Shown here piece after piece: positions 3,934-60,068 of a stretch of 64,000 bases of DNA (positions are counted from its first letter, which is position 1; every line of letters begins with the position of its first letter). The translations under genes and the position numbers were made by a program. Source of the stretch: a virus; IMG/VR virus record IMGVR_UViG_3300025687_000024, positions 1-64,000 of that record; one strand, given 5' to 3'. The notes beneath the pieces are model-generated. The model ran no database searches and was not told the DNA's origin. It worked only from the letters and a program-made list of their open reading frames with translations.

Positions 3934-6375
3934 ATGGGTACCATCGCCTCCAGGCTGAATCTGCGGCTGTTCCTCGATGGGGTGGAGGTCCCTGTCATCG
4001 GAGCTCGGTGCACCTTCTCCGACGGCGCGCCGGCGACAGCTGAGGTCCAGATCGTGGCCACCAACGCCGTGCACGACATCCTGCCGCGCACGCTGGTCAC
4101 CCTGTTCTACTACGAGACCTACGACTACGAGAGGACCTCGGGCACCGTGGCGCTCACCAAGCTCGGGGTCGAAGACCCCCGGCGCTGGAAGTTGCTGTTC
4201 CTCGGGGAGGTGACAGGCCTGGCCATCCAGCAGCAGAACCAGCAGCGCGCCTGCGTGCTCTCCTGCGTGGATCCGTCTACCTACTGGGACTCCATCCGGC
4301 AGCACTACATCAACTTCCGCAACGCCGGCGTCGAGCTGTTCGAGAACGCCTTCATGGGCGTGCGGCTGGACCGCCTCAAGCACTTCGATGTCGTCACCAA
4401 GGATGCGCACTCCAACCTGTTCGTGTGGTTGTCGCAGTCCAAGGTGAAGACGGGCAAGACCGAGACCAAGCTCGCAGGCTACCGTCACACCATGTCGGGG
4501 AAGACCATCTCGGTGGACGAGTACAACTCGCTGGCGACGGCTGAACTGAGCTCCGATGAGCAGCACGTGCTGTCGCAGGGGGCGGTGAAGACCACCTCGG
4601 TCACCGAGGATGGCGAGAGCGCGAGTGACTACGCCCCGTACTATGCCGAGGTCGACGAGGAGTACTCCAACCTCTACGTCGGCATCCAGCGGATGCTGCG
4701 TGAGATGTTCTTCGCGTCCAACCTCTTCTACGCCAAGGCGTTCAACCGGCTGCGTCTCGGGGATATGCTCGTAGGGCTCCCCGAGGACAAGACCGCGGCG
4801 AAGCTGATGAAGCTCGACTACTTCGAGAAGTTCATCAAGGGCCAGGTCGGGGGTGCTGGAGGCTATGTCACGGCGCGGCAGCTCATCCAGCTCATGCTGG
4901 GGACGGTCTTCCACACCTACACGGCCGTGCCATGCCCGAAGTTCGACCCGGAAGGGACCTCGCGCGGCATGACCATGAGCGTGGAGCAGGACGCGCACCT
5001 GCTCAAGGAGATCCTCCCAAGGTACACCCGCCCGGGCGCGACGTTGAACTACCAGCTCATCAAGCCGGATGCCTGGTTCCTCGCTCCGCCTGCCTGCAAC
5101 GTCATCCTGCCCCACCAGATCAACAGCCTGGCCTACCAGCGCAACTTCTTGCAGGAGCCCACCAGGCTGTTCATGCGCACCAGCCTGCTGTTCACCGGGA
5201 CCAACAAGTGGCTCACGGAGCGTTTCTACGCTCCGGACTTCGCTGCCTTCGACGTGCAGATGTACGACAAGGGGGGCTTCAACGAGCGCATGGCCAGCAC
5301 GCTCCTCCCGCACGAGAAGTGGATCGGAATTGCTCCTATCGAGCACTGGCAGCACGACCTTCAGGCCTACGTCGCCAAGGGCCCGCGGCGGGAGTACCTC
5401 GCCCACCTGGCCGACTACCTCTTCTGGAAGCAGCGCTTCGCGCCGCGGACGGCCAACGTGGCGCTGCCCTTCACCCCCGACCTGGTGGTGGGGTACCCCG
5501 GGGTAGTTGTCACGGAGACCGGCCGGGTAGGCACGGCTGGGCGCCACATCATCGGGCACATGCAGACGCTCGTGCACAGCATCACCCAACAGGGAGGCTG
5601 GACCCACGTGACGATGCAGGGGTGCCGTAACCACGATGAAACCGCTGACTTCGACGCCGAGAAGCGCACCCTCGAGGAGCTCACCTCTCGGGGAGCTGAC
5701 GGGTTCCTCGATGACCGTTACGACGTGGGGCGCATCGGGCAGGAGGTCTACCAGCCCATCTTCGGGTGCGACAGCCTGGTGGACGCTGTCACTACGGACG
5801 ACCTCACCGAGGAGATCGAGCAGACGATCCTCACCGACCTGCAGTTCCTCCTGGACACCGAGGACTCGCCGCTGGCGGCGTCCGTCGTGGCGCTGCAGGT
5901 GCTCTACAGGTCTGCCGTACGCGCGAAGCTCGACATCAACGCGTTCACCAGGTCGCTGACGCACCGGCCCAAGGCCAACATGGTGGAGGTCATCGGGCTG
6001 CCTACCACGCAGGGCGCCACTAGTGAGATGGAGCAGATGATCTTGTCGCAGTCCGGCGAGGTCGAAGGGTTCCACTCCATCGCGGTCGATGTCGACGCCT
6101 CGGATCACAGCTACGACCAGTACACCACGACGCGCTACGAGAACGTGTCGGAGGTGAAGCACACTCCCGCGGTGATGGAGGAGCAGATCTTCCCGGACGG
6201 CGGCGTTATCTCGGTCGAGGAGGTCGAGGTCGAGAAGGCGAAGACCGAGAAGGTCACGTACACGCGGGAGATCAACGAGACGGCGACCTACGGCCTCAAG
6301 GACGATCTTGCGGAGCGGCAGGAGAGGATTCGGCTGTACCTTGATAGTCTGGTGATGCGAGGTATCCGCGGATGA
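3934..6375 (+). CDS. Baseplate hub protein (gpD/late control D-like)
   Basis: An 813-residue protein with a GGGAG Shine-Dalgarno before ATG 3934. The first 120 residues fit the hub-domain style of gpD/VgrG-like proteins: a short strand-rich start (LNLRLFLDGVEVPV), a central turn, then a segment typical of domains that bind other tail proteins (RRWKLLFLGEVTGLAIQ). The middle is aromatic and beta-rich. The last 60 residues are acidic and Lys-rich and may form a helix. The hub sits at the tip of the tail tube and carries the spike. Its stop overlaps the start of the next gene as ATGA. The family call is from overall pattern and gene order; the exact homologue is not certain. Confidence 0.6.
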   Translation: MGTIASRLNLRLFLDGVEVPVIGARCTFSDGAPATAEVQIVATNAVHDILPRTLVTLFYYETYDYERTSGTVALTKLGVEDPRRWKLLFLGEVTGLAIQQQNQQRACVLSCVDPSTYWDSIRQHYINFRNAGVELFENAFMGVRLDRLKHFDVVTKDAHSNLFVWLSQSKVKTGKTETKLAGYRHTMSGKTISVDEYNSLATAELSSDEQHVLSQGAVKTTSVTEDGESASDYAPYYAEVDEEYSNLYVGIQRMLREMFFASNLFYAKAFNRLRLGDMLVGLPEDKTAAKLMKLDYFEKFIKGQVGGAGGYVTARQLIQLMLGTVFHTYTAVPCPKFDPEGTSRGMTMSVEQDAHLLKEILPRYTRPGATLNYQLIKPDAWFLAPPACNVILPHQINSLAYQRNFLQEPTRLFMRTSLLFTGTNKWLTERFYAPDFAAFDVQMYDKGGFNERMASTLLPHEKWIGIAPIEHWQHDLQAYVAKGPRREYLAHLADYLFWKQRFAPRTANVALPFTPDLVVGYPGVVVTETGRVGTAGRHIIGHMQTLVHSITQQGGWTHVTMQGCRNHDETADFDAEKRTLEELTSRGADGFLDDRYDVGRIGQEVYQPIFGCDSLVDAVTTDDLTEEIEQTILTDLQFLLDTEDSPLAASVVALQVLYRSAVRAKLDINAFTRSLTHRPKANMVEVIGLPTTQGATSEMEQMILSQSGEVEGFHSIAVDVDASDHSYDQYTTTRYENVSEVKHTPAVMEEQIFPDGGVISVEEVEVEKAKTEKVTYTREINETATYGLKDDLAERQERIRLYLDSLVMRGIRG

Positions 6376-8147
6376 GTGTTCGGTGGTTCCAGAAGCTGGC
6401 GCAGTCGGCGCCCGTCACGCCGCGGGCCCCCGAGGTCCCGAAGGCCCCAGCTCGGCCGAAGACCCCGAAGCTCCCCAAGCCCCCGAGCGCTACCAAGGGG
6501 CCGAACGGTCACTGGCGCACGCTCCCGCCCGGGCACCAGGGGCACGACGCCCAGGGGAACGCCCAGGCAGGACGTACCTGGGTACGGCGTGGGGGCGGAC
6601 TCAAGCCCTCTGCCGCCCCGATGAAGCACCAGGCCGACTTCACCAAGGCGGTCACCAAGCTCCCGACGAAGAAGCCCTCGGGCCTCATCGCGGCCCACGG
6701 GACGGGCACGGGCAAGACGTTCTCGGCCATCGCTGCGGTGGAGAAGCTGCGCGAGAAGGGCCAGGTGGAGCGCACCCTCGTCGTGGCCCCTGCAGGCCTC
6801 CGGTCGAACTTCTTGGCCAAGGGCGTGAACAAGTTCACCACCTCCAAGGGCGTCATCGCCAACCGCCCCGGGGACATCCCGAAGGATGCGCACTACGTGG
6901 TGGTGTCCTACGCTGCCTTCCGGCAGAACCCAGACGCCTACATCGACGCCTACCAGCCCGACACGCTCATCGTGGACGAGGCGCACCGACTCACCAACAT
7001 GGAGAGCGCGTCCTACAAGGCCATCCGGCACGCCCGTACGCGGATCCCCCGAGTGATCCCGCTCACCGCCTCCATCGTGCAGAACGACCCCTCTGACGTG
7101 GTACCCCTGCTGAACATCGTCGCCGGGCAGGACCACACCCGGAAGGAGTTCAAGCAGCGCTACGTGCGCCGGGTGCCCACCGGGCAGAAGGGGGTGTTCG
7201 GCGGGAAGGTCTACGCGAAGAAGATCGTGCGGCAGGAGGAGCTCAAGCGCACCATCGGTCCGCACATCCACTACATCGAGGACCTCGACGCGGACAAGAA
7301 GCCGGCCAAGGAAGTGGAGACCGTAGAGGTCCCTATGAATGCGGAGCAGCTCAAGCTCTACCGCATGTCGATGAAGGGCGTGGACCCCAAGCTCCAGGCG
7401 CGCATCGCCGCCGGCGAGGCGGTCTCCCAGCGGGAGGCCATGACGGTGTTCACCCGGCTGATGCGTGCTCGCCAGGTGTCGAACAGCATCCACACGGTGC
7501 AGCCGAGCATGACGCCAGGACAGGCGGCGGACGCCACTCCCAAGATCAAGCAGATCTTGGACGACGCGGCTGCGCACATCGACAGCACGCCGGACGCCCA
7601 GATCATCATGTACTCCAACATGGTCCACGGGGGCGTTGACGTGCTCAAGGCGGGGCTCGAGAAGCGGGGCATCCCCTTCGGCATCTTCGCTGGGAAGGGC
7701 GTCAAGGGCATCACCGAGGAGACACGGCAGCAGGCGGTCGACGACTACCTGGCCGGGAAGATCAAGGCGATCATCATCACAGGCGCGGGTGCGGAGGGCC
7801 TGTCTCTCGGCAACACGACGCTGGTGCAGCTGGTGGACGGGCACTACAACCCTGAGCGCATCAGCCAGGCCGAGGCCCGCGGGGTGCGCGCCGGTGGACA
7901 GGCCCACCGGCCGCAGAGCGAGCGTCGGGTAGCAGTGAAGCGCTACGTGTCTACGCTCCCTCGAGGCTTCTGGAAGACCATCACGATGCAGCCGCGTGAG
8001 AAGAGCGTGGGGCAGTGGGTCTACGCTACGGCCGAGCGCAAGCGCGCTGCCAACGAGCAGTTCCGTGCTGTCCTCTCAGCGCGGCACGAACACGAGCAGA
8101 AGAGTCGGGAGAGCACGCTCTACCGACTCTTCGGAGGAGGCCCATGA
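6372..8147 (+). CDS. SF2 helicase (SNF2-like), virion-tag bearing
   Basis: A 591-residue SF2 ATPase. Walker A is GTGTGKT at residues 110-116, motif II is DEAH at 202-205 (TLIVDEAHRL), motif III is probably the TAS near 225. The C-terminal RecA-like domain carries a GAGAEGLSLG motif followed by QAEARGVRAG, the usual place of the arginine finger. The N-terminus is a Pro/Lys-rich linker and begins with WFQKLAQSA, a weak version of the tag seen in neighbouring virion proteins. The start ATG overlaps the hub stop (ATGA). A helicase inside a tail operon is unusual. It may be packaged, or may remodel nucleoprotein late in infection. ATPase identity is firm; the role and substrate are unknown. Confidence 0.85.
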   Translation: MSVRWFQKLAQSAPVTPRAPEVPKAPARPKTPKLPKPPSATKGPNGHWRTLPPGHQGHDAQGNAQAGRTWVRRGGGLKPSAAPMKHQADFTKAVTKLPTKKPSGLIAAHGTGTGKTFSAIAAVEKLREKGQVERTLVVAPAGLRSNFLAKGVNKFTTSKGVIANRPGDIPKDAHYVVVSYAAFRQNPDAYIDAYQPDTLIVDEAHRLTNMESASYKAIRHARTRIPRVIPLTASIVQNDPSDVVPLLNIVAGQDHTRKEFKQRYVRRVPTGQKGVFGGKVYAKKIVRQEELKRTIGPHIHYIEDLDADKKPAKEVETVEVPMNAEQLKLYRMSMKGVDPKLQARIAAGEAVSQREAMTVFTRLMRARQVSNSIHTVQPSMTPGQAADATPKIKQILDDAAAHIDSTPDAQIIMYSNMVHGGVDVLKAGLEKRGIPFGIFAGKGVKGITEETRQQAVDDYLAGKIKAIIITGAGAEGLSLGNTTLVQLVDGHYNPERISQAEARGVRAGGQAHRPQSERRVAVKRYVSTLPRGFWKTITMQPREKSVGQWVYATAERKRAANEQFRAVLSARHEHEQKSRESTLYRLFGGGP

Positions 8148-8572
8148 GCGATGCCCTGGTGACCAGCTACTTCAACGAGCTGGAGAAGATCGCAGAGACC
8201 GGAGGGCACGCTGACGTGTTCGCTGCGCTGGACAAGCTGGCGAACGAAGCGGATGCCGAGACCGAACCCACGGACGACTACGCCCCGACGCGTTGCCCGA
8301 AGTGCAAGACCCCGTGCACGCGGGACGACGTGAAGTGCAAGAAGTGCGGGACCAAGCTGAGGTCCGATGACCAGCGTGAGGACGCTGCGCAGCTGCAGGC
8401 CGAGGCCGAGAGTCCCGGACAGCACGAAGCACCCCCCGGACACGAGAAGACCGCGAAGACGGGCGATGCCCCGGACAAGCAGAAGCGCAAGGGGCCGAAC
8501 CCCATCCTGAATCTCCGCAAGGGGAAGAAGTCCAAGCGCATCCGAGCCCGGCTGGCCTCCTGCGCGGAGTAG
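8144..8572 (+). CDS. Zinc-ribbon protein with two copies of the KIA tag
   Basis: A 142-residue protein starting at ATG 8144, overlapping the helicase stop (ATGA); longer in-frame starts further upstream would lie inside the helicase gene. Residues about 8-17 read SYFNELEKIA and a second, weaker copy follows (VFAALDKLANEA). A four-cysteine zinc ribbon lies in the middle (CPKC, then CKKC). The C-terminal third is very basic (KQKRKGPNPILNLRKGKKSK), so nucleic-acid binding is plausible. It is coupled to the helicase gene and shares its tag, so the two products may act together in the particle. No catalytic motif is seen. The zinc ribbon is clear, the function is not known. Confidence 0.75.
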   Translation: MSDALVTSYFNELEKIAETGGHADVFAALDKLANEADAETEPTDDYAPTRCPKCKTPCTRDDVKCKKCGTKLRSDDQREDAAQLQAEAESPGQHEAPPGHEKTAKTGDAPDKQKRKGPNPILNLRKGKKSKRIRARLASCAE

Positions 8573-8575
8573 TGC

Positions 8576-8581
8576 TACGAT
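8576..8581 (+). promoter_or_regulatory. Candidate -10 element (TACGAT)
   Basis: TACGAT lies just after the stop at 8572, and a start point about 7 bases downstream would open directly into the three hairpins at 8588-8640. No good -35 box is visible 17 bases upstream, so an activator or a different sigma factor would be needed. Support is the hexamer and position only. Confidence 0.35.
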
Positions 8582-8587
8582 CCTGTC

Positions 8588-8640
8588 ACCGCGTGAGCGG
8601 TAGTGCAGGCTCACCAGCCTGTCCTCCGGAGGTCCGGAGG
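8588..8640 (+). promoter_or_regulatory. Three tandem hairpins in a structured 5' leader
   Basis: Three adjacent perfect stem-loops: ACCGC/GCGGT with a GTGA (GNRA-type) loop at 8588-8601; CAGGCT/AGCCTG with loop CACC at 8606-8621; CCTCCGG/CCGGAGG with loop AGGT at 8623-8640. A good Shine-Dalgarno (AGAGGAG) and the ATG at 8664 follow. The third stem is GC-rich but has no T-run, so a terminator is unlikely. A message-stabilising leader for a strongly expressed structural gene is the simplest reading. Confidence 0.55.
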
Positions 8641-8663
8641 CTATCCACTCAGAGGAGTCCCCC

Positions 8664-9293
8664 ATGTCCCAGCTCGGCAAGAGCCCCGTCCAGAACCTTC
8701 TCTCCTGGAGCCCCAAGAAGAAGGGCTGGTACCCCAAGACCATCGTCTCCCTGATGCAGCGCATCGTGAACGACATCTGGAAGTGCAACGAGATCCTCGA
8801 GGGCTGCAGCGCCATCGCGGACGGCGCCTCCATCAGCGCCACCACGCTCAACGTCACCACCACGGGCGCCCTGCGCTGCAAGCTCAACGGCCGCCTGATG
8901 GCCGCCCTGGCCATCCTGGACGATGCCGATCTCCTGGCCGACGTCGGCACCCCCATCTGGTCCGACGGTTCGCCGGTGGAGGCCTTCGAGCTCGGTGCGG
9001 GGGAGGACGTCACCGTCACCCTCATCGTCACCAACTCCGACGACGCGGGCGACGTGGACGAGGACGACGCGGGCACCCCGCTCCTGGTCCCGGTGCTCTC
9101 CGGCACGGCCGCGGCCTACACCGGCGGGCTGGACCAGCTCTCCTCCTACGAGATCCAGAGCGCCCTCGAGGCCAGCGATGAGCATGCCGGGGTCACCGGC
9201 TGGGCTCACGTGCTCCAGGCCGTGTTCACCGAGGACACCGGCGTCACCGGCGCCTACGTCCTGAACCGCAACAACGTCGTGTCGGAGGCCTAG
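8664..9293 (+). CDS. Virion structural protein, unknown (decoration or fibre-like)
   Basis: A 209-residue protein with a strong Shine-Dalgarno (AGAGGAG) and the only strongly structured leader in the window. The first 50 residues are mixed and basic (SPKKKGWYPK). The rest is Ala, Thr, Asp, Val and Gly rich and beta-prone, like phage decoration or fibre proteins. A very acidic stretch (DAGDVDEDDAG) lies near residue 130. No catalytic motif or membrane helix is seen. Strong translation signals and codon bias toward C-ending codons suggest an abundant structural product. The precise role (head decoration, tail sheath partner, fibre) cannot be told. Confidence 0.6.
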   Translation: MSQLGKSPVQNLLSWSPKKKGWYPKTIVSLMQRIVNDIWKCNEILEGCSAIADGASISATTLNVTTTGALRCKLNGRLMAALAILDDADLLADVGTPIWSDGSPVEAFELGAGEDVTVTLIVTNSDDAGDVDEDDAGTPLLVPVLSGTAAAYTGGLDQLSSYEIQSALEASDEHAGVTGWAHVLQAVFTEDTGVTGAYVLNRNNVVSEA

Positions 9294-9316
9294 CCCTGCC
9301 TCTGCGGAGGTAGGTC

Positions 9317-11152
9317 TTGGACTGCGTCCTTCCGAGCTTCGCGGCTGAGCTGACCAAGATCGCCGCCTCCGAGAGCAAGAGGCGGCGCTCCGGGTACGCA
9401 GCAGCTGTGGGGGCAGCCGCCCCCTTCGCCGCGGTGCAGGCCGCGACCGACTACCCTCGCGGGTGGGTCGACAAGGCGGTCGAGAACCGCGTGCTGGGCA
9501 AGCAGAACGTGGCCAAGCTCGGCCCGAAGGTCGCCCCGTGGTCCGTGGGGCTCGGCCGCGCAGCAGGCCGGCTCGGACCCGGCTTGCTGACGACGCCGAT
9601 CTTTCTCAGCGGCATCAAGGACCTGAGCAACGCGCAGTCGGATGCCGACAGGAAGAAGGGCTACGCCAAGATCCTGGGATCCGGCGTAGCCTTCTCGGGC
9701 GGCAAGGGGGCCATCGAAGGTGGCGTCCAGCGGCTCGGCGGGCTCTCGTCGAAGCAGGCCCTGCAGAAGGTCAAGAACCTGGCCAGCTCGCGGATGATCA
9801 CCGGGAGCCTGGCGGGCGCCCTCACGGCGCGGTCTGTGGCCAACAGCGTGCGCGACGACCGCAAGGGCAAGAAGAACAAGGGCCTGCTCATCCCCGCGGT
9901 GACTGGCGCGGCAGTGGGCGCGGGCAAGGGCGGCTTCGACAAGGCCTACGGGATCGTCAACCCCAAGTTCCGCAGGCAGCTCCCCAAGGCCGAGCGCCTG
10001 GTCGGGACCAAGAGAGCGATTCCGGCGGCCATGGCAGGGCGCGCGGCCGCGGGTGCGCTGTCCGCTGTGGTGCTCTCCCGCCTGGCCCGTGCGTACATGA
10101 AGAAGGGCAAGGAGAAGCAGGCCGCGGTGGAGGCACCCCCTGGACCGGGGCACACCTACGAGCAGGTACGGGCCTGGGCCGCGGACAAGTCGCCGGAAGA
10201 GGTGGCGCAGCAGTTCGCCCACACGCACAAGCGCGGGGACCCCGAGGCAACCCCCACTCGACGAGCGGTGTACTACGCCCTGCACGACGACCTCGCCCGG
10301 CGGGGGGCCACGGAGCTCCCGCCGCCCAAGAAGCGGGGGGAGGCTACCGGGGTGGCGCGCACCCCCAACGTGGCTCACGCAGCTGCGCTCTCTACCATCC
10401 TGGTGGCGCCGGAGCTGGTGTGGCACGGCATGACGCACACCATGGCCCCCGGGGAGAAGAGCCTGGTCATGTCCGAGGCCCTGGACCGCATGATCGCTGA
10501 GCGAGGGATCGAGCGGATGAACTCCGGACACCCCTTCTGGGGCACGTCCATGCGGCCCGGGGCCTACATGCGCCTGGAGGAAGAGGCGACGGACAAGGCG
10601 ACTCGGGAGCTCCTCGAGGTCGCTCGAGGGGCGAACAACTCCGAGGCGCGCAAGCTGCTGGCTGCCTACGGCACGGGGAAGCGCAAGTTCATCCTCGCCC
10701 CGGAGAAGGCGTTCCCAGACGTGCTCGCGCACGAGCTCGGCCACGCCACGGCGGGCTCCCTCCGGCAGAAGACGCTCCAGCACCCCATGGCGTCCGTCGT
10801 GGCGCGCTATGCTCGCCTGCCCGCCATCGCCCTCCCCATCATCGCCATGGCAGGGATCGGTGACGGCTCCTTCGCGACCAAGAAGGACTTCGAGAGCCGC
10901 GCCAAGTTCGTGCAGGGCGTCGGCATCGCCACGGCGCTCCTGAGTGGACCGAACCTGGCAGAGGAGGCGGTGGCCAGCGGGAAGGCGCTCAAGTACTTGA
11001 GCCGTGCCGGGGCGTCCCCTCGGCAGGCGACCCTGAAGGCGCTCAAGCGCCTCGTGCCAGCCTTCGGGACCTACGCGGCTCCCGTGGTCTTCCCCTTCGC
11101 CGTGGCACACTCCCTTCGTCGCAGAGCCGAGAAGGCTGGGAGAGACGGATGA
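9317..11152 (+). CDS. Virion-associated zinc metallopeptidase with KIA tag
   Basis: A 611-residue protein starting at TTG 9317, six bases after GCGGAGG. The N-terminus carries the tag SFAAELTKIA at residues 7-16. Several Gly/Ala-rich segments (for example after residue 26) look like glycine-zipper or membrane-penetrating helices. A metallopeptidase motif, HELGH, lies at residues 472-476, and an acidic NLAEEAVASG about 75 residues later may supply the third zinc ligand (gluzincin pattern). The neighbours are other tagged, Gly-rich proteins and the message is coupled to the next gene (ATGA). A packaged peptidase could cut the host envelope or process other virion proteins. Peptidase motif is clear; substrate unknown. 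Confidence 0.7.
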   Translation: MDCVLPSFAAELTKIAASESKRRRSGYAAAVGAAAPFAAVQAATDYPRGWVDKAVENRVLGKQNVAKLGPKVAPWSVGLGRAAGRLGPGLLTTPIFLSGIKDLSNAQSDADRKKGYAKILGSGVAFSGGKGAIEGGVQRLGGLSSKQALQKVKNLASSRMITGSLAGALTARSVANSVRDDRKGKKNKGLLIPAVTGAAVGAGKGGFDKAYGIVNPKFRRQLPKAERLVGTKRAIPAAMAGRAAAGALSAVVLSRLARAYMKKGKEKQAAVEAPPGPGHTYEQVRAWAADKSPEEVAQQFAHTHKRGDPEATPTRRAVYYALHDDLARRGATELPPPKKRGEATGVARTPNVAHAAALSTILVAPELVWHGMTHTMAPGEKSLVMSEALDRMIAERGIERMNSGHPFWGTSMRPGAYMRLEEEATDKATRELLEVARGANNSEARKLLAAYGTGKRKFILAPEKAFPDVLAHELGHATAGSLRQKTLQHPMASVVARYARLPAIALPIIAMAGIGDGSFATKKDFESRAKFVQGVGIATALLSGPNLAEEAVASGKALKYLSRAGASPRQATLKALKRLVPAFGTYAAPVVFPFAVAHSLRRRAEKAGRDG

Positions 11153-12003
11153 CCATCGCCAAGGATGTCGCAGCGGGCGTAGACCCGTTTGGTGTGTGGA
11201 CTACGCGCTTGGCTGCTGACGCGGAGCGTGCACGCACTTCGCGGAGGAAGCACCGCACCAAGACGCTGGCCGCAGCGGTCGGCGGCAGTATCGGCGGCGG
11301 CGTGGTGGTCCCCTCGGTCGTGTCCGGCGTCATCGGGGCGGCCAAGGGCGCCGGCGGCGGGGCGAGCTTCAAGCAGCGTCTCCGCGGAGCTGCCAAGGGG
11401 GCGGTTCGCGGCGCCCAGGCACCGCTCAAGAACCTGGTGCAGGGCGGCAAGGCTCTGCGGACGGCACGCCGGGCGGAGAAGAAGGGCCTGGCAGGCTTGT
11501 CGGAGCGCGAGATCGCGCGTACTCGGAAGATGATCGGCAACCTGCGGCTGAGCGACGTCTACGCGCATCGCAAGCACATGAAGCCCACCAAGGCGCTCAT
11601 GCGCGAGCTGCGCAGTGCCAAGAAGGGGGACTCGCCTGCCCGGAAGCACGTGGTCGAGCAGCTCGCAGGCAAGTACAAGGGCGTGCCCAAGGAGAAGCGC
11701 GACGAGATGGGCAAGCTCCTTCTCGGAGGCAGCGGCATCGTCAGCGCCGCCCGGAAGAAGGGTGAGCGGGCCTTCGCCAGTGGCGTGGCCGCCATGGGCA
11801 TGGCGGCCGGCGTCGGAGGCGGGGGCGCGGCCCTGCAGTACCAGAAGGGGCGAGAGATCGAGCAGGAGACGCGCCGCCGTCTGCGCGAGGCGCGCAAGCG
11901 CATGGGTGACGGCGGCAAGGAGAAGCAGAGCACTGCGCTCCCCGCGCTGACCGAGGCTGCGGTCAGGAGTTTTTGGCAGGAGCTCGCCCAGATCGCAGCA
12001 TAG
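11149..12003 (+). CDS. Basic glycine-zipper virion protein, tag at C-terminus
   Basis: A 284-residue, very basic protein whose ATG 11149 overlaps the peptidase stop. Two Gly/Ala/Val-rich segments (about residues 40-65 and near 215-230) look like membrane-active helices. The middle is Lys/Arg-rich helix. The last 13 residues read VRSFWQELAQIAA, a version of the KIA tag placed at the C-terminus instead of the N-terminus. No enzyme motif is visible. It resembles small internal virion proteins that are injected with the DNA. Assignment is by composition, tag and position in the tagged cluster. Confidence 0.6.
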   Translation: MTIAKDVAAGVDPFGVWTTRLAADAERARTSRRKHRTKTLAAAVGGSIGGGVVVPSVVSGVIGAAKGAGGGASFKQRLRGAAKGAVRGAQAPLKNLVQGGKALRTARRAEKKGLAGLSEREIARTRKMIGNLRLSDVYAHRKHMKPTKALMRELRSAKKGDSPARKHVVEQLAGKYKGVPKEKRDEMGKLLLGGSGIVSAARKKGERAFASGVAAMGMAAGVGGGGAALQYQKGREIEQETRRRLREARKRMGDGGKEKQSTALPALTEAAVRSFWQELAQIAA

Positions 12004-12034
12004 TTGGCACGTGCCTCGGGTCTCGGGGTACAAC
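12004..12034 (+). promoter_or_regulatory. Candidate promoter TTGGCA-19-TACAAC
   Basis: TTGGCA (12004-12009) and TACAAC (12029-12034) have a 19-base spacer, longer than ideal. A 10-bp palindrome GGCACGTGCC (12006-12015) overlaps the -35. The next gene starts at 12058 with AGAGAGG as Shine-Dalgarno. This is one of the few true gaps in the operon, which supports a separate start site, but the match is moderate. Confidence 0.3.
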
Positions 12035-12057
12035 GATGAAGACAGAGAGGTTCCCAC

Positions 12058-12675
12058 ATGGACAGCATCTACGGACACTTCACGTCGGCCGCGCTCGAGC
12101 TGGTGGCCCAAGCAGGCAACGCGGGTGCGAGGGTTCTCGGGGCCTTCGACGGCGAGCTCGAGAAGATCGCGGCGCGCATCCCCCAGGCCCGTCCGGAGTT
12201 CGCTCGGATGCGTATCCGGGCGTACCGCCAGCAGGTGCTCGAGCGGGCGGCCAGGCAGCCGAAGCCCGACATGCGCTCTCCCGGTGTCCGTCTCGCAGAG
12301 CGGGTGGCGCAGGGAGGCCCCGTGGCCACGCCGCCTGTGCGGTCTGCCCCGGTGCGCCCGCGTTCCGCTCCGAAGCCTGAGCCGGCCAAGCCGGCGCCGG
12401 CCAAGCCGGCGCCCGAGCCAGCCCAGGCCGCCCCCGTGGGAGCGGCTGACTCCGCCAAGCCCAAGAAGCCCAAGAAGGACAAGGGCAAGGGACTCCGCCC
12501 TTGGCAGGCCGTCGCTGGCGGCACCGCGGTCGCGGGCAGCGCGCTCGCGGGCGGCTACGCACTGTCGCAGCACAAGGAGCGCCGCGAAGACGAAGATCGC
12601 CGACGGCGCATCCTCAGCTACCTCCGCTCCCGCCCCCAGCAGCAGTCCCTGTCGCGTCAGCTTCGCGGAGCCTGA
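12058..12675 (+). CDS. Small membrane-prone virion protein with KIA tag
   Basis: A 205-residue protein starting at ATG 12058 after AGAGAGG. The tag AFDGELEKIAAR lies at about residues 29-40. A Pro/Ala/Lys-rich linker with near-repeats of PAKPAP follows, coded by repeated DNA near 12385-12420. Then a Gly/Ala/Val segment (WQAVAGGTAVAGSALAGGYA) forms a single likely membrane helix, and a basic, Arg-rich tail ends the protein. This layout (tag, linker, one glycine-rich helix, basic tail) recurs in the next gene. A virion protein that enters or bridges a membrane is plausible. No catalytic motif is seen. Confidence 0.65.
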   Translation: MDSIYGHFTSAALELVAQAGNAGARVLGAFDGELEKIAARIPQARPEFARMRIRAYRQQVLERAARQPKPDMRSPGVRLAERVAQGGPVATPPVRSAPVRPRSAPKPEPAKPAPAKPAPEPAQAAPVGAADSAKPKKPKKDKGKGLRPWQAVAGGTAVAGSALAGGYALSQHKERREDEDRRRRILSYLRSRPQQQSLSRQLRGA

Positions 12676-12676
12676 G

Positions 12677-13219
12677 ATGTACGACTTCGCGCGCATCATC
12701 GACGTCTTCGAGGATGAGCTGGAGAAGATCGCCAGGTTCCGGCACGCCTCCAACGAGGGGCTGCACGTGGTGCAGCAGGCGCTGCTCGGCAACAAGGCTG
12801 CGCTCAAGCAGCAGACTCGCGGTGAGGTCAAGGCGCTCGGCCTCGGGCGCTTCGTCCCGTTCACCTCGTCTCATCGCGCGGCCCACCAGGCCAAGCAGAG
12901 CGCGAAGTTCCAACGCCGCGCCTACGACAAGGAGCTGGCCGAGGTGCAGCAGGAGGTCAAGCGCCGTGCCCAGGAGGGCAAGTGGGCGGGGACGACGCGC
13001 CCCCGGTTCTTCGGCACGACGCCCACCGCGGGTGAGGTCGAGAAGGCCACGCGGAAGGCCATCAAGAACGAGCGGAAGGCCAAGCGGACGAAGACCCTGC
13101 GCATGGTGGGCGGCGGTGTGGCCGGTACCGGCGCGGTCGTCGCGGGCGGCGTGGCCGGGAAGAAGTACATCGATCATCGGCGGCGCACGAGGGCCTACGG
13201 CGGCTATGCGGGGTACTGA
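12677..13219 (+). CDS. Small basic virion protein with KIA tag and C-terminal glycine-rich helix
   Basis: A 180-residue protein starting at ATG 12677, one base after the stop of the previous gene. Tag VFEDELEKIARF is at residues 10-21, then a Lys/Arg/Gln-rich helical middle, then a Gly/Val/Ala helix (MVGGGVAGTGAVVAGGVAGK) close to the C-terminus, and a short basic tail. The TGA overlaps the next gene's ATG (TGATG), so it is coupled to the sigma-like factor. Longer in-frame starts upstream were rejected because they run through the previous gene in another frame. Role inferred only from tag and layout. Confidence 0.65.
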   Translation: MYDFARIIDVFEDELEKIARFRHASNEGLHVVQQALLGNKAALKQQTRGEVKALGLGRFVPFTSSHRAAHQAKQSAKFQRRAYDKELAEVQQEVKRRAQEGKWAGTTRPRFFGTTPTAGEVEKATRKAIKNERKAKRTKTLRMVGGGVAGTGAVVAGGVAGKKYIDHRRRTRAYGGYAGY

Positions 13220-20991: not shown

Positions 20992-21828
20992 ATGCCTGAT
21001 GTCTACCAAGGAGTCGTAGGTCGACAGCTGCGGGTACCCCTGCGCGATTCGTTGGGGACCACGGGCCTGGCGCTGGAGGACTTCACCATCTACGCCGCCT
21101 CGGAGGCTTCCTGGGTGGCGGATGCGGAAGCTACGCTGGCACTCATCCTCATCGAGGTCGACAGTGAGAACTTCCCCGGGTACTACGAGCTGGCGCTCAC
21201 GCCTGTGGGCGAGGGCTTGCTCTATCTGTCCGTCGCCGGGACCGATACGCATCACCTGGCGGTGCAGGCCGCCCACGAGGGTGTGGACCTGGTCGGTACG
21301 GTGCAAGCTGGTGCGGAAGGGACGTACACCGTCACCGTCGAGGACGACGGCGGGAGTCCGGTTTCGGGAGCGACGGTCAAGATCTACTCGAGCGGCGGGA
21401 CCCGCCTCGTAGCTCGAGGTACGACCAACGCAGCTGGGCAGGTAGCCTTCGGGCTGCCCACTGGCTCGTACTACGTGCGGGTCTACGTGGATGGCTACGA
21501 CTGCACCGAGGTGAACCCCACGGAGATCCTGGTAGTGGCTGACCCGACGGTAGACCCCGTGGTGCTCAGCGCGGTGCCGGAATCCCCGCTCGCCGGCGGC
21601 AGCGTCACCCTGCTCGGCACGTGCCTGGGGGACACCCTGGCCGACGTGGATGTGCTGTTCGACGGGGAGGTCGTGGCAGCCTCGGCGCTGGCGGAGGGCG
21701 GCACGGCCGTGGTGGCCTCCGTGCCCGAGGCTGCTGGAGGGCCCGTGTCCCTGCAGGTACGCAAGCCGGATCCCAGCAACCCGGGGGAGTACCTGGTGTC
21801 CAACATCGTGTGGGTGGAGATCGTATGA
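20992..21828 (+). CDS. Structural protein with regulatory-like and IPT/TIG domains
   Basis: A 278-residue all-beta protein. The middle (about residues 115-170) has a carboxypeptidase regulatory-like unit (GASVKIY-type phrase SPVSGATVKIYSSGGTRLVA, then TTNAAGQVAFGLPTGSYYVR). The C-terminal third is an IPT/TIG Ig-like domain (VVLSAVPESPLAGGSVTLLG ... VSLQVRKPDPSNPGEY). These modules are widespread in phage fibres. Start ATG 20992 is three bases after the previous TGA. The next gene begins within this stop (ATGA). Likely baseplate or fibre adaptor; no enzyme. Confidence 0.65.
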   Translation: MPDVYQGVVGRQLRVPLRDSLGTTGLALEDFTIYAASEASWVADAEATLALILIEVDSENFPGYYELALTPVGEGLLYLSVAGTDTHHLAVQAAHEGVDLVGTVQAGAEGTYTVTVEDDGGSPVSGATVKIYSSGGTRLVARGTTNAAGQVAFGLPTGSYYVRVYVDGYDCTEVNPTEILVVADPTVDPVVLSAVPESPLAGGSVTLLGTCLGDTLADVDVLFDGEVVAASALAEGGTAVVASVPEAAGGPVSLQVRKPDPSNPGEYLVSNIVWVEIV

Positions 21829-22625
21829 GGCCCTACCTACAGCACCTCGAGAAGACTGCGGCGCACCCGGTCGTGGCGCGCGCCGTGGAGGCGCTGGTCG
21901 GGGCCATCCTCGGCGGCGGTGTCGGCGCAGGCGCGGGGGCCATCACCTACAAGCCCGATGAGCCGAAGACCCTGCGCCTTCCCGACGGCTCGCTCTACAC
22001 GCGCAAGTTCACGCAGGACGAGCGCAGCCAGCTGCTCGACCGGGCGCTCAAGGGGGCCCTCATCGGGGGTCTGGTGGGCGGCGGTGCTACGGGTGGCCTG
22101 GCAGCCCTCATGCGACGCTCCACCGCCCGGAAGGAGAAGGCCGACGCGCCGTACCTGGTCAACAAGTACCTCACGTCGCTGCGTTCGCTGGAGCGCGGTG
22201 CCAAGAGGGACGTGGCTTCGGGGCAGCGGCATCTCGGGGATCTGCGGGCAGCTCAGCGCGGGCCCGCGGCAGAGCGTCCGGGAGCCATGCGGCTGTTGGA
22301 GGTCCAGGAGCGCATCACGGAGGCCCACCGCCGCCAGCAAGCCATCGACGCGCTCATGCAAGCCGAGAAGGCGCAGTTCGAGGGGTTCCTCGGAGCGGCC
22401 AAGAAGGCGCGCGCGCGTTCCCTCTTCGGCGGCCCGCGCTTCATGATCGCCAAGCAGGACGGGGAGAAGCTGTTCCTGCCGGCGCCGACGCGGCACGAGG
22501 GCCAGATCTTGCAGCACCTCGGCATCGACAACCCGGCCCTGTCCTTCCGTCCTCGAGGACGGCGGCATGATGCGGTCATCCCGGAGGCGTACTGGCAGCA
22601 GCGCCTGCAGGGCGCAGCGAGGTAG
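21825..22625 (+). CDS. Glycine-zipper virion protein with KIA-type tag
   Basis: A 266-residue protein starting at ATG 21825 (ATGA overlap); longer in-frame starts within the preceding gene were rejected. The N-terminus carries YLQHLEKTAA, a variant of the tag. Two glycine-zipper segments follow (ALVGAILGGGVGAGAGAI at about residue 23 and ALKGALIGGLVGGGATGGLA at about 70). A Lys/Arg-rich helical tail ends the protein. The layout matches the tagged proteins at 11149-13219 and 59697. A membrane-active internal virion protein is likely by composition. No catalytic motif is seen. Confidence 0.6.
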   Translation: MRPYLQHLEKTAAHPVVARAVEALVGAILGGGVGAGAGAITYKPDEPKTLRLPDGSLYTRKFTQDERSQLLDRALKGALIGGLVGGGATGGLAALMRRSTARKEKADAPYLVNKYLTSLRSLERGAKRDVASGQRHLGDLRAAQRGPAAERPGAMRLLEVQERITEAHRRQQAIDALMQAEKAQFEGFLGAAKKARARSLFGGPRFMIAKQDGEKLFLPAPTRHEGQILQHLGIDNPALSFRPRGRRHDAVIPEAYWQQRLQGAAR

Positions 22626-22628
22626 CCC

Positions 22629-23303
22629 ATGGCCAACTCGATCACCCTCACGGTCACCCGGCTCGGGACTACGACGGCCGACAACCCGGCGCTGTGCCGC
22701 GTGTCCGGCTACCTCCGGGACATTCACGGCAACGCCCTGCCCGGGGAAGCGCTGACCGTGCGCCACGTGTACAACCCCATCGTCGTGGGGACGGACACGC
22801 TCATCCTGAACGAGGAGCAGGAGGTCGTTTCGGACGGCAACGGGCTGGTGCAGTTCGACCTGTACCGCGAAGCCACCGTGCGCATCGAGCTCCCCAACAG
22901 GGTGCTCGACCTGGTGCGCGAGGTCACGGTGCCCGACGCTTCCAGCGTTGACCTGGTGGCCCTGGTCTTCCCCTACATCGTCAGCGTGGCTTTCGAGGAT
23001 ACGAGCCCCGTGCTGGCTTCGGTGGGAGCCTCGCTCTCGCTGGCGGCCGTGGCCACGTTCTCGGACGGAACCGAGGTCGATGTGTCGGTCCAGGCTACCT
23101 ACGAGGTCAGTGACTCCGACGTGCTGGCAGACCTCGGGGCGGGTGCGTTCAGTGCGCTGGCGGCCGGCTCTGCGACGGTGAGCATCACTGCCGTCGATAC
23201 CGACGAGCTCACGCAGTACCAGGACCTCGACGGCGAAGTACTCGGGAGGCTCGACCTGCCGGACATCACCTACCCTGACGCGATCACCGTCGAGGTGTCC
23301 TGA
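22629..23303 (+). CDS. Ig-like structural protein
   Basis: A 224-residue beta-rich protein beginning at ATG 22629. The N-terminal unit (LTVTRLGTTTADNPALCRVS ... DGNGLVQFDLYRE) and a C-terminal unit resembling bacterial Ig-like group 2 (ASVGASLSLAAVATFSDGTE ... SALAAGSATVSITAVD) are visible. These domains act as spacers or adhesins in phage tails. TGA overlaps the next ATG (TGATG). No catalytic residues. Similar in style to the proteins at 18458 and 20992, with which it probably assembles. Confidence 0.6.
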   Translation: MANSITLTVTRLGTTTADNPALCRVSGYLRDIHGNALPGEALTVRHVYNPIVVGTDTLILNEEQEVVSDGNGLVQFDLYREATVRIELPNRVLDLVREVTVPDASSVDLVALVFPYIVSVAFEDTSPVLASVGASLSLAAVATFSDGTEVDVSVQATYEVSDSDVLADLGAGAFSALAAGSATVSITAVDTDELTQYQDLDGEVLGRLDLPDITYPDAITVEVS

Positions 23304-23551
23304 TGCTCCCCAGCTTCGCAGCAGCGCTCGAGAAGTACGCCAAGGCGGAGCGTCTCTCGGTCTCCCCGAAGGACCGCGTTGCGTGGAAGGCGCGCCTGGC
23401 GCAGGCGAAGGTCCCGGAGGGCGACACCCCTTCGGTGGGGCGGGACAAGCAGGGGTTCTACGTCTACACGCACAGGGCGCGCTCGTCCTCCTACCCCACC
23501 CCCGGCGCGATCCCCCTGGCCAAGATCCGGTTCGTCGGCTCTACGGGGTGA
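23303..23551 (+). CDS. Small tagged virion protein
   Basis: An 82-residue protein whose ATG overlaps the previous stop (TGATG). The start SFAAALEKYAKAERL at about residues 4-18 is the KIA tag with Tyr in place of Ile. The rest is basic, with Arg/Lys/Ser and a beta-prone end (GFYVYTHRARSSSYP, IPLAKIRFVG). No known domain is recognised. Its size and tag put it with the small packaged proteins in this phage. Confidence 0.6.
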   Translation: MLPSFAAALEKYAKAERLSVSPKDRVAWKARLAQAKVPEGDTPSVGRDKQGFYVYTHRARSSSYPTPGAIPLAKIRFVGSTG

Positions 23552-49946: not shown

Positions 49947-51137
49947 CTACTGGGGCCGGCGGAACTGCCGCTGGCCTCCGCCACCGCCCCAGGGGGCGGA
50001 GCGGGTCTGGGTCTGGGCCTGGTAGGGGTTGGGGCGCTTGAGCTGCTTGGCCTGCACGTCCAGCACGGCCGCCACGTACTCGGCGTCGGAGCTGAACTTG
50101 GAGCGGTCCACGCGCTCGGGACGGAAGCGGTGGTGCAGGTCCCAGTGCTGGAGCAGCGCCTTGAGCTCGGCGTCGTCCAGCCCGTAGCCCTGCAGGTCGT
50201 TGTGGATGTTGGAGAAGGGCTGGCTGCGGTCGAAGTTCAGCGTGGTGTACTTCCGCTGACGGCCCGAACGGTCGGTCTTGACCTCGCCCGCGCAGTTGAC
50301 CTCGAGGGTCTTGTCGAACACGGTAGCCGGGACGGGGTCATGCGCCTCGCTGGCGCACATCTGGATCTCCTTGGGGTAGCCGCGCTTCCCGCACTTGGGG
50401 CACTCGTGCTCCTGCTCGATGAACTCCAGGATCTTCTCGGGGGGTTCGGTCTGCAGGTGATGCTCCTCGAACCAGGCGTGCATCTGGCAGTGGGGGCAGA
50501 CGAACTCGACGGGGAACACGTCCTGACCGCAGACCTGGCCCGTGGCCTGGTCGTAGTGCAGGCAGGTCTGCCCGAGGATGTCGTTGACCGCGTACAGCTG
50601 CTGGAAGTGGGTCTTGCCCATCTCCCAGACCTTGTGCCCGCCCATGAAGCGCTCGGCGACGGAGGGGTCGTGGCTGTTGCAGAAGCGGCAGCGGTTGCGC
50701 TGGGGCAGGATCTCGTCGGACATGCAGCGCTCGAAGGCGATCTTGCCGTCGGAGCCCTTGACCCGGTGGTAGAAGCGCAGGTCGATGACCTCGATGGCGT
50801 AGACCAGGCGCGGGTACAGCTTGTCGATGTCCTTCTGCTGCTGTTCCGTGAGGCTACCTCCGGCGTTCCGGGCCTGCTGGGCCTGGTGGAGGTAGTGGCA
50901 GTAGACGCAGTGACCCTCGAACCCGGGCCACTCGCTGGTGCAGGTACGGGGCCCGGCGCCGGGCAGCCAGTGACGCTTGAGCACGAGCAGCTCATCGTTG
51001 GCCGGCGCGAGCACGCGCACCATGCCACGCTCGCCCGCAGCGATCTTGTAGATCTCGGCCTCCCACGGATCGTAGGCCGTGGTCGGCGCGAGCTGCTCCG
51101 CCTGGCGGCGGGCATTGCGGAATGCACTCCAGCTCAT
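49947..51137 (-). CDS. Zinc-ribbon protein, possible ssDNA-binding protein
   Basis: A 396-residue protein. The N-terminal half has an aromatic, basic core of OB-fold style (RGMVRVLAPANDELLVLKRH) with cysteines at 66, 77 and 80 and another pair at 150 and 153. Further pairs occur at CPHC and CPKC around residues 215-250. The C-terminus is Gln/Gly/Arg-rich (WGGGGGQRQFRRPQ), the disordered tail style of phage single-stranded DNA-binding proteins. Location in a replication operon next to the primase supports that role. A zinc-containing SSB is the best guess; a zinc-rich scaffold is the alternative. Confidence 0.55.
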   Translation of the reverse strand: MSWSAFRNARRQAEQLAPTTAYDPWEAEIYKIAAGERGMVRVLAPANDELLVLKRHWLPGAGPRTCTSEWPGFEGHCVYCHYLHQAQQARNAGGSLTEQQQKDIDKLYPRLVYAIEVIDLRFYHRVKGSDGKIAFERCMSDEILPQRNRCRFCNSHDPSVAERFMGGHKVWEMGKTHFQQLYAVNDILGQTCLHYDQATGQVCGQDVFPVEFVCPHCQMHAWFEEHHLQTEPPEKILEFIEQEHECPKCGKRGYPKEIQMCASEAHDPVPATVFDKTLEVNCAGEVKTDRSGRQRKYTTLNFDRSQPFSNIHNDLQGYGLDDAELKALLQHWDLHHRFRPERVDRSKFSSDAEYVAAVLDVQAKQLKRPNPYQAQTQTRSAPWGGGGGQRQFRRPQ

Positions 51138-57919: not shown

Positions 57920-59017
57920 ATGGACCTTCGGACCCAGGTGATCGACTTCTACGACGACCGAGAAGGTCGGATCCTCCAAGGCTTCGTTCCTGACCCCTCG
58001 GACCTCCCGCCGCTGGTCAAGACTGCTGCGGTCCTGGCGGAGAGCGCGCACAACAACCAGTACGCCTTGGTGATGAGCGATCAGCAGGGCACGCTGAGGC
58101 GTTTCCCCACCAACGACGTGGGGAACACCTGGTTGTCGGCGCTCTACTTCCACGCCACCCATGACGTGCTGCCGGAAGAGGCGGAGAAGGTCGCGGCGGC
58201 CAACCTCCTGCTCGCCTGCAATCACTTCCAGATCGACCCCCCGCAGAGCTTGGTGGAGGCAGCCTCGAGGCACGACGGACCCCCCACGACCAACCTGGTC
58301 GACATCACGGGTCAGCGTCGCGAGATCATCAAGGAGGCCGAGGCTCTTCCCGAGGACGACGTCGTCTACGCCCTCGAGGACGAGAAGCGATACCCCCTGG
58401 CCAGCGCGCAGGACGCCCGCACCGCTATGACCTACCTGGACAGGCACCTGCGGGGCTTTGCCCCCGGCCAGCGACGCGAGTTCGCCACCAAGGTCGCCAG
58501 TGTGGCCGAGCGTGCAGGGCTCCCAGTGGAGGGGGCGGTCGCGCAGTACGCGGGCAACGACTACTCCCCCGGGCTGCAGGGACACCTCACCGCCCGCGCC
58601 GCGTACCTGGTGGACATCGGGGCCACGCCCAAGGTGCGCGCCGAGTTGACCAAGGTCGCGGCCCAGCGCACCGCGCTCCCGCCCGACGAGTTCGCCGCGG
58701 CGCTGCAGACCTTCGATGAGAGCCACGGGCTGGATCGTCTGTGGGACCAGGGCATCGCGGATCCCTACTACTCCACCTTCGGGTGGACGGTGAAGACCGC
58801 TGCCGACAAGGCGCGCTACGAGGCGGGCATCCTCTCCGTGTCCGAGGATGAGCTCCGCTCGCTGGCGGAGTACGGGCGCAAGGTGCTGGTCGAGCGCTTC
58901 GGAGAGAAGCTCGCCAACGCCTTCTGCAAGAACCCGGTCGCCATCTTCACGTCCATGCCGCTCCCGCAGCGGCAGATCCTGGCCAACATGGCCTCCAGCG
59001 TCACCGACTTGCAGTAG
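57920..59017 (+). CDS. Virion protein near portal, unknown
   Basis: A 365-residue protein starting at ATG 57920; an in-frame start at 57875 has no better ribosome site and would lie in the divergent promoter region. It is mostly helical, with Ala/Arg/Glu. Early part: DREGRILQGFVPDPSDLPPL, then NNQYALVMSDQQGTLRRFPT. Later part has ADKARYEAGILSVSEDELRS and a hydrophobic end. No catalytic motif is visible. It heads the operon that leads to the portal gene and is probably an internal head or head-completion protein. The exact family is not recognised. Confidence 0.55.
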   Translation: MDLRTQVIDFYDDREGRILQGFVPDPSDLPPLVKTAAVLAESAHNNQYALVMSDQQGTLRRFPTNDVGNTWLSALYFHATHDVLPEEAEKVAAANLLLACNHFQIDPPQSLVEAASRHDGPPTTNLVDITGQRREIIKEAEALPEDDVVYALEDEKRYPLASAQDARTAMTYLDRHLRGFAPGQRREFATKVASVAERAGLPVEGAVAQYAGNDYSPGLQGHLTARAAYLVDIGATPKVRAELTKVAAQRTALPPDEFAAALQTFDESHGLDRLWDQGIADPYYSTFGWTVKTAADKARYEAGILSVSEDELRSLAEYGRKVLVERFGEKLANAFCKNPVAIFTSMPLPQRQILANMASSVTDLQ

Positions 59018-59025
59018 GAGGGCAC

Positions 59026-59700
59026 GTGAAGCCCCTCTTCCAGCCCGCGAGACCGTTCGAGGACGGGATGGGGCTTCACGTGCAGCCCCTCACAACGCTG
59101 CTTCTGCAGTTGCTCGGCCCCGAGTACATCGACTGGGACTCCGAGGCGCTCTTCCTCGAGTTGGAAGAGCGTGGAGGCGTCCCCGTGGGTGCGATGACGC
59201 AGGAGCGCATCCAGGCGGTGCGTCTGATGCACCGGCAGCCCTCGTTCTGGCACGACTGGGGAGTGTTCGAGAACGTGACGGCGGCCATCCTCGGACACGG
59301 CGCGGTCTTCAGCCACGCTCAGCCCCCCGATGCGCACGAGATCGCGATCGCGTTGGACGTGGCGCGCGTCTTGGACGCCTCGCGTGCCTACTCGGCCGAG
59401 GTGCTGCAGTACATCGTCAGTGCGCTGCTCTACGACGGCGTGTGGTACCTCGAGGAGCCTCTCGACCTTGCACAGGCGACCTTGGCGGACCACGATAGCA
59501 CCAAGGGCATCCTTCGGGACGTAGGTCAGGTGGCTGCCGTGCTACAGCGTGTTGGGAACCGCTACATCACGACGCCTTCGACAGCGGCCGAGGTGCAGGC
59601 CAACCACGTCATAGAGGTCAGGAAGGCACGAGCGGAGTACAATCAGCAGGTGCAGGCGCAGTTGCGCCAACTTCCGCAGATCCTCCAGGAGCTACGATGA
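59026..59700 (+). CDS. Helical protein before portal, unknown
   Basis: A 224-residue protein starting at GTG 59026 with GGAGGG just upstream. It is helical, with Leu, Gln, Ala and Glu, and a Trp-containing core (QPSFWHDWGVFENVTAAILG). The C-terminus is a charged Gln-rich helix (YNQQVQAQLRQLPQILQELR). The next gene overlaps its stop (ATGA). Structural or chaperone role for the portal or head is plausible from position. No motif. Confidence 0.55.
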   Translation: MKPLFQPARPFEDGMGLHVQPLTTLLLQLLGPEYIDWDSEALFLELEERGGVPVGAMTQERIQAVRLMHRQPSFWHDWGVFENVTAAILGHGAVFSHAQPPDAHEIAIALDVARVLDASRAYSAEVLQYIVSALLYDGVWYLEEPLDLAQATLADHDSTKGILRDVGQVAAVLQRVGNRYITTPSTAAEVQANHVIEVRKARAEYNQQVQAQLRQLPQILQELR

Positions 59701-60068
59701 GCCAGTACGACACCGTCAGGGAACAGATCATCCTCATGGCGTTCGAGGAAGAGCTCGAGAAGATCGCCGCCGGCTGGTTCACCCCCATCAAGAAGGGGCT
59801 GAAGTCGGCGGGCCACCGCATCATCTCCAAGGCGGCGCCCACGGGCAGCGGGGCGGCTACCGCTGGCATCCGCGGCCTGCGGAAGGGCGTGAAGCAGGGC
59901 AAGCGTGGCTACTGGAAGGCCGGCAAGAAGGCCAGCTTCAAGACGCGGGCGCGGGTCTTCGGAGCCAACGCCATGAACTTCGCCGCGCGGAACCCCGGTA
60001 CCGCTGCTGCGGGCGTCGGCCTGGGAGCGGTCGGTGCGGGTGCTGTGGGCGCCAAGGTCCTGAGCTAA
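59697..60068 (+). CDS. Small glycine-zipper virion protein with KIA tag
   Basis: A 123-residue protein starting ATG 59697 (ATGA overlap). The tag AFEEELEKIAAGWF stands at residues 15-28. The middle is Lys/Arg/Gly rich (KKGLKSAGHRIISKAAPTGS) and the last 25 residues form a Gly/Ala/Val helix (AAAGVGLGAVGAGAVGAKVL). It is next to the portal gene. The layout matches the other tagged small proteins, so it may be packaged inside the head and injected. No catalytic motif. Confidence 0.65.
   Translation: MSQYDTVREQIILMAFEEELEKIAAGWFTPIKKGLKSAGHRIISKAAPTGSGAATAGIRGLRKGVKQGKRGYWKAGKKASFKTRARVFGANAMNFAARNPGTAAAGVGLGAVGAGAVGAKVLS

Follow-up and report, generated by a model that had tools for sequence, protein, structure and literature searches.

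The DNA analysed here, referred to as the window, comprises bases 1-64000 of a virus record of 110,689 bases in total; the rest of the record was also read, and genes were called over its full length. Several genes in the left part of the window, and a few farther to the right, encode proteins carrying a short peptide of the type F-x-x-E-L-x-K-I-A (the tag). Copies were scored with a ten-position profile trained on 140 tags of other phages, this phage and its near-identical copies being excluded; those listed below all lie on the plus strand. The 142-aa product of 8144-8572, which gives a weak zinc ribbon match (1.7e-5, under the curated cut-off), carries YFNELEKIA at residues 9-17 (positions 8168-8194; score 29.4, 0 expected from shuffles). 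The 611-aa protein encoded at 9317-11152 has FAAELTKIA near its N-terminus, at residues 8-16 (9338-9364; score 25.0). It is likely, judging from its relatives, to be a zinc metallopeptidase: it groups by BLASTP with a tagged protein (L068) that matches Zn_peptidase_2 (3.3e-5). In the 284-aa protein of 11149-12003, the peptide reads FWQELAQIA, with Q in place of K, and stands at the C-terminus (11971-11997; score 13.6, 0.01 expected), one of just two C-terminal copies in 15 proteomes. Two basic proteins complete this group, one of 205 aa (12058-12675) with FDGELEKIA at residues 30-38 (12145-12171; score 20.6), the other of 180 aa (12677-13219) with FEDELEKIA at residues 11-19 (12707-12733; score 27.9). 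Farther on, FAAALEKYA occupies residues 5-13 of the 82-aa protein of 23303-23551 (23315-23341; score 12.3, 0.035 expected), and FEEELEKIA residues 16-24 of a basic 123-aa protein encoded at 59697-60068 (59742-59768; score 27.1). The latter tag is retained in the near-identical record G021, and its gene adjoins one for a weakly portal-like protein (60112-62004, plus strand; phrog_16240 portal, E 7e-4).

The earlier note on this DNA had listed nine such strings, all of which are present in the genes to which it assigned them. The seven described above are confirmed by the profile built from other phages, each with no more than 0.04 matches expected per shuffled proteome. An eighth, YLQHLEKTA in the 266-aa protein of 21825-22625 (21834-21860), is borderline: its position at residues 4-12 speaks for it, but its score of 4.4 corresponds to about 1.25 chance matches genome-wide. 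The ninth, WFQKLAQSA, lies near the start of a gene for a SNF2-type helicase (6372-8147; SNF2 domain, 6.7e-18) at 6384-6410 and is unsupported by itself (score -15.5), although strongly tagged orthologues of this helicase occur in other phages (L020, L022). The second, weaker copy that had been read in gene 8144 likewise finds no support from the profile. Over the whole record, the profile identified 17 tag sites, against 0.035 expected in shuffled proteins; the top score in reversed proteins was 8.9. Beyond the window, the search of the whole record added further copies, at its positions 79989, 83261, 89541, 90139, 91555, 92103, 96249, 97094 (internal) and 98905, as well as a weaker internal copy within a scaffold-like gene at 87503. 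An exact-pattern search of the same record yielded one copy only, the pattern being too strict. The proposal that the tagged proteins are otherwise unrelated was borne out by all-against-all BLASTP of the parts following the tag, which detected no similarity among those of this phage. The replication module (40.7-57.9 kb, 20 genes), which encodes RecA, DNA polymerase A and a DnaB-like helicase, contains no profile-supported tag. The earlier note would have taken an equal frequency of the motif in shuffled or replication proteins as a refutation, and that condition is thus not fulfilled. On the replication side, the product of 49947-51137 (minus strand; no Pfam match) has WEAEIYKIA at residue 25 with a score of 7.1, in the chance range.

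The major capsid protein of this phage is encoded at record positions 85226-86254 (phrog_2522, 1.2e-12) and has relatives in Salmonella phage Arash and in Vibrio phages D69, D148 and D181. It is matched by 215 stretches in IMG/VR, many of whose contigs measure 180-200 kb. Searching 10 proteomes with a strict form of the tag motif gave 48 matches, 43 of which fall among the 45 N-terminal residues; its reversal had none. With a profile trained on all phages, 97 sites were found in 15 proteomes against 5 in reversed sequences, and 83 of the 97 fell within the first 45 residues. The forward DNA pattern had at least 117 matches in IMG/VR, the reversed protein motif 74 in the whole collection; among the forward matches listed, T4-like portals aside, most have the form M-x(3-10)-[AS]-FxDELEKIA and open a reading frame. 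In whole records, the DNA pattern of the tag had 35 forward matches and its backward control 0. One recurrent mimic, F-x-SELEKIA inside the portal proteins of T4-like cyanophages, was removed as an unrelated conserved stretch; it is internal (LAQKDIRFARTIQRLQRAFxSELEKIA, in L005, L008, L011 and similar contigs) and its contigs lack the protease described below. The full tag does not occur above chance in phage G, PaBG, Arash or Vibrio D69. The phages that carry it form a large, mostly uncultured family.

The cargo attached to the tag is diverse. The 172 tagged proteins of related phages fall into 123 groups without BLASTP similarity to one another, and aligning 63 of them reveals hardly any conservation beyond the tag itself. 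These observations, together with shuffled and reversed controls that stay near zero, virtually exclude chance recurrence or the leftover homology of a single gene family, even though some copies (6372, 21825) are weak. As far as sequences can establish it, the tag is a real, mostly N-terminal and modular element common to unrelated proteins. The parts following the tag are basic: they have a charge of +0.063 per residue, compared with -0.012 in proteins overall (p = 2e-43), and for this phage the two values are +0.105 and -0.017 (p = 1.5e-6). Many tagged proteins are also rich in glycine and alanine (median 23% vs 15%). Recognisable domains include SNF2-type helicases, NUDIX, GNAT plus glyoxalase, pyrophosphatase, C92 and NlpC/P60 hydrolases, a zinc metallopeptidase and a P-loop protein. 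Among the cargo are enzymes of kinds that are known, or would be expected, to be injected. In record G019, about ten small unrelated genes stand in a row, nearly all starting with MNxFExGFFDELxKIA (L226-L227, record 33.6-53.9 kb), an arrangement that resembles a cargo cassette with a copied start. The same SNF2-type helicase bears the full tag in L020, L022 and L105 and a reduced MRRLASSFEKIAKK start in G019; the Arash helicase is untagged and begins about where the tagged version starts after its tag. Two helicase genes (L022:3304-5397 and G022, record 199006-201309) have a second tag just past the helicase domain, ahead of a further stretch, as if a single gene gave two separately released cargoes. 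For the second tag of L022, an internal start codon cannot be excluded.

The consensus derived from these proteins is [ASG]-F-x-D-E-L-E-K-I-A, with a median start at residue 9. A small residue precedes the F in 89% of the copies and D occupies position 3 in 59%; since the search required neither, both are independent signs of a real element. It is likely, by inference, that F, L and I lie on one face of a short helix. Features of a secretion signal (a basic start, a long hydrophobic core) are absent from the logo, which is amphipathic with D or E at positions 3, 4 and 6.

The back half of the tag, hydrophobic-x-K-x-A, is found again in many head proteins. When K-x-A sites were counted by region of this record, the head gene groups had 57 against 14.3±3.4 in shuffles and 9 against 2.2±1.5, the limits of the regions having been set by us from the annotation. 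The motif was at expectation in the tail, fibre, replication and early regions and was enriched only in the head groups; in the replication module of this phage, 6 sites were counted and 7.8 expected. In capsid proteins, a K-x-A lies near the N-terminus, exactly 7 residues ahead of RDxLRE, in all 42 sequences. (A structure model of the capsid protein had a mean pLDDT of 42, too poor to be used.) A 365-aa protein of the head group (57920-59017, plus strand) contains 4 sites against 0.25 in shuffles, and the 13 members of its family have 3-7 sites apiece. A family encoded some 3 kb upstream of the capsid gene (L122-L201) shares a strongly conserved element, EADFLGRVMAHAYVxEL with I..KxA or KIA after it, which includes the tag-like stretch MAHAYVxELxKIA; we infer from position and sequence character only that it is the scaffold. 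Two head proteins look built for chopping up: one (record 87503-88435; L003) has acidic repeats split by EKTAG, and the other (71863-73881; L002), a 672-aa protein, has about 10 K-x-A sites. The K-x-A end of the tag is evidently common to the capsid protein, the protease and the scaffold-like proteins, although cutting at these sites has not been shown. As to other genes in the vicinity, the Arash annotation places genes for multisubunit RNA polymerase beta (gp206 and gp216) next to the head genes (L202-L205), and the present record encodes a 2036-aa protein at 62280-68390.

The confinement of K-x-A enrichment to head genes bears on the possibility that the tag routes proteins elsewhere: to the tail, the membrane, an intracellular phage compartment or degradation. 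Many tagged proteins are Gly/Ala-rich, as membrane-active injection proteins can be. However, neither tail nor early genes are enriched for K-x-A, the tag accompanies a head protease, and its acidic, amphipathic consensus is unlike a secretion signal. Homing, membrane and degradation roles were set aside because the enrichment is found in head genes only, and a destination other than the head appears highly improbable. A separate question is whether the peptide is nothing but a cleavage site, the cargo entering the head by other means, for instance by binding DNA through its basic charge, and the peptide merely marking where it is trimmed. The strongly basic character of the tagged proteins would suit such a scheme, as would the fact that K-x-A alone is common to head proteins. 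Yet 1,637 non-tag K-x-A sites in head proteins show no enrichment of F and E in front comparable to that in the tag. What the tag has in common with these sites is thus L-x-K-x-A, while [ASG]-F-x-D-E is peculiar to cargo; being conserved and absent from other head sites, the front half probably has another job. Since, in addition, a need for trimming basic proteins is not evident, a role in cleavage alone is regarded as improbable.

A candidate for the enzyme that would recognise these sites is encoded at record positions 81143-82828. This 561-aa predicted prohead protease accounts for one of 68 matches in the sets of sequences fetched. A K-x-[AS] lies 28-39 residues ahead of the catalytic core in 52 of 52 members (the count being of distinct homologues with a recognisable core), while the flanks vary widely; in an alignment of 32 members K41 is invariant and A43 conserved in at least 90%. 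The predicted structure (mean pLDDT 78) has a disordered stretch at residues 1-42, with the K-x-A site at 39-43 and order starting just after it; other K-x-A sites fall mostly in low-confidence linkers near 260-315 and 500-520. Such placement, at a boundary between disorder and order and in linkers, is typical of self-cutting sites. The fold resembles that of 92 predicted viral structures (E<=0.001), among them gp19 of phage G and many that are named prohead protease; phrog_18299, a head maturation protease family, is matched by 9 of the 32 members, at best with 6.5e-6. No match was found among solved structures (Foldseek against the PDB) or in Pfam, and a profile search of the PDB returned chance matches only, so that the identification depends on predicted folds and on weak profile matches. 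The protease gene is present on 34 of 47 tag-bearing contigs and on none of 50 control contigs, which contained reversed-motif matches, T4-like portals or other internal matches. The controls are mostly shorter, so length could explain part of the gap; yet the gene is also missing from all three controls above 120 kb. Several relatives of the protease have long intein-like insertions (..CFPDGAAVKTAHGRMPIEE..) in the conserved catalytic stretch (L179:3661-6648; G018, record 113249-118273; L175; L180; L190; G006, record 141237-145256).

The earlier note had suggested a virion packaging or docking peptide like the capsid-targeting sequence of T4, and packaging remains the best-supported reading. 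It is an inference, no virion proteomics or N-terminal sequencing having been found for any tagged phage, and its basis is the sharing of K-x-A with head proteins only, the co-occurrence with the protease, the basic cargo and the presence of enzymes of injected type. What that note missed is that the last five residues resemble a cleavage site for a head protease, which points to a removable propeptide rather than a docking peptide only. We therefore favour, with a probability of about 0.75, the interpretation that the tag is a removable capsid-targeting propeptide, which docks cargo in the prohead and is taken off by the prohead protease after K-x-A; the argument is drawn from sequences, and packaging, cutting and injection have not been shown. 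The front half, [ASG]-F-x-D-E, would bring the cargo into the core of the prohead, probably by forming a short amphipathic helix that binds the scaffold or the inner shell. The back half, L-x-K-I-A, would be the cleavage site of the phage's own prohead protease. Cutting after the A, as inferred from motif sharing, would free the cargo inside the head, and the freed cargo would presumably be injected with the DNA.

Some observations count against a propeptide. A cut at the C-terminal copy would take off a single residue, and the isolates Arash and Vibrio D69 have the same head genes and no F-x-x-E tag. (Labels of 'structural protein' in the Arash annotation were not accepted as virion evidence; they include antirepressor-like proteins of the early region and may be predictions.) It is also conceivable that the tag attaches to the scaffold or inner shell and is never cut off, remaining on the mature cargo, with K-x-A as a shared binding motif. 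The residue following the tag shows only a mild A/E/G/S bias (55%, vs 68% at other head sites), which leaves this possibility standing, and both the C-terminal copy and the tag-like MAHAYVxELxKIA inside the scaffold-like protein would fit it. It accounts less readily for the K-x-A sites of the protease, which lie at the disorder/order boundary and in linkers without any F-x-x-E. On balance a permanent docking peptide seems unlikely, though it cannot be dismissed, and the removable propeptide is retained as the preferred reading.

The closest precedent for such a propeptide is in T4, where the residues for targeting and for cutting are neighbours within a 10-residue sequence: positions 4 and 7 matter for the former, positions 8 and 10 for the latter (PMC9026906). 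There too, a short N-terminal propeptide on head-internal proteins is cut by gp21, and one protease cuts both core proteins and the capsid protein (PMC9026906, PMC5694885). However, the published sites of T4 and of giant phages end in E (LIE, gp21, PMC9026906; AXE, SPN3US, PMC10052503), whereas that of the tag is hydrophobic-x-K-x-A. The tag was not classed with the T4 sequence, since its end, L-x-K-I-A, with K and A as the shared residues, departs from the L/I-x-E at which T4 cuts. It also sits on many more unrelated genes, and its targeting and cutting are inferred only. Another parallel is offered by phage P1, whose DarB protein is a SNF2-type helicase. The first 30 residues of DarB bring a reporter to the capsid, and here as well the signal is N-terminal and 10-30 residues long (PMC9024508). 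A signal of this type on a SNF2-type helicase is matched by the tagged helicases of L020, L022 and L105, the copy at 6372 being a poor one. The Dar proteins share no N-terminal consensus (PMC9024508), whereas the tag has a strict one across more than 100 groups. In the giant phages phiKZ and SPN3US, injected head proteins lose an N-terminal propeptide to the prohead protease, and each propeptide contains several copies of a motif (PMC10052503). Most of these propeptides have 111-254 residues, cleavage follows AXE or SQE, and no short universal tag has been described there (PMC10052503, PMC5694885). The protease itself has a relative in gp19 of Bacillus phage G, by sequence (2e-11) as well as predicted fold. 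Phage G has K-x-A in the same N-terminal place (LVKTAA at residue 41 of gp19) and MAKQAAS near the start of its portal, but no F-x-x-E-L-x-K-I-A tags above chance.

No description of the tag was found in the literature searched, which was limited to open-licence papers. The working principle is known from T4 and P1; as far as that literature shows, what is new is the consensus, the specificity for K-x-A and the large number of unrelated proteins that bear the tag. We consider it somewhat better than an even bet that this lineage of large, uncultured phages loads unrelated cargo into the head by means of a universal plug-in tag, the set being open-ended and exceeding 120 groups so far, sometimes with a second, internal tag at a domain junction (the L022 and G022 helicases) that would yield two cargoes per gene after cutting. 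The proposal predicts a new prohead-protease specificity, K-x-A, seen also in phage G, which is an isolate, and a tag this compact might serve to load chosen proteins into phage heads. Injected proteins are known for few model phages, and the targeting signals there are hard to spot from sequence. If the interpretation is true, the set of proteins that each of these phages injects could be read from its sequence, and the strict tag would allow candidate injected proteins, including anti-defence and host-takeover enzymes, to be listed in phages that have not been cultured.
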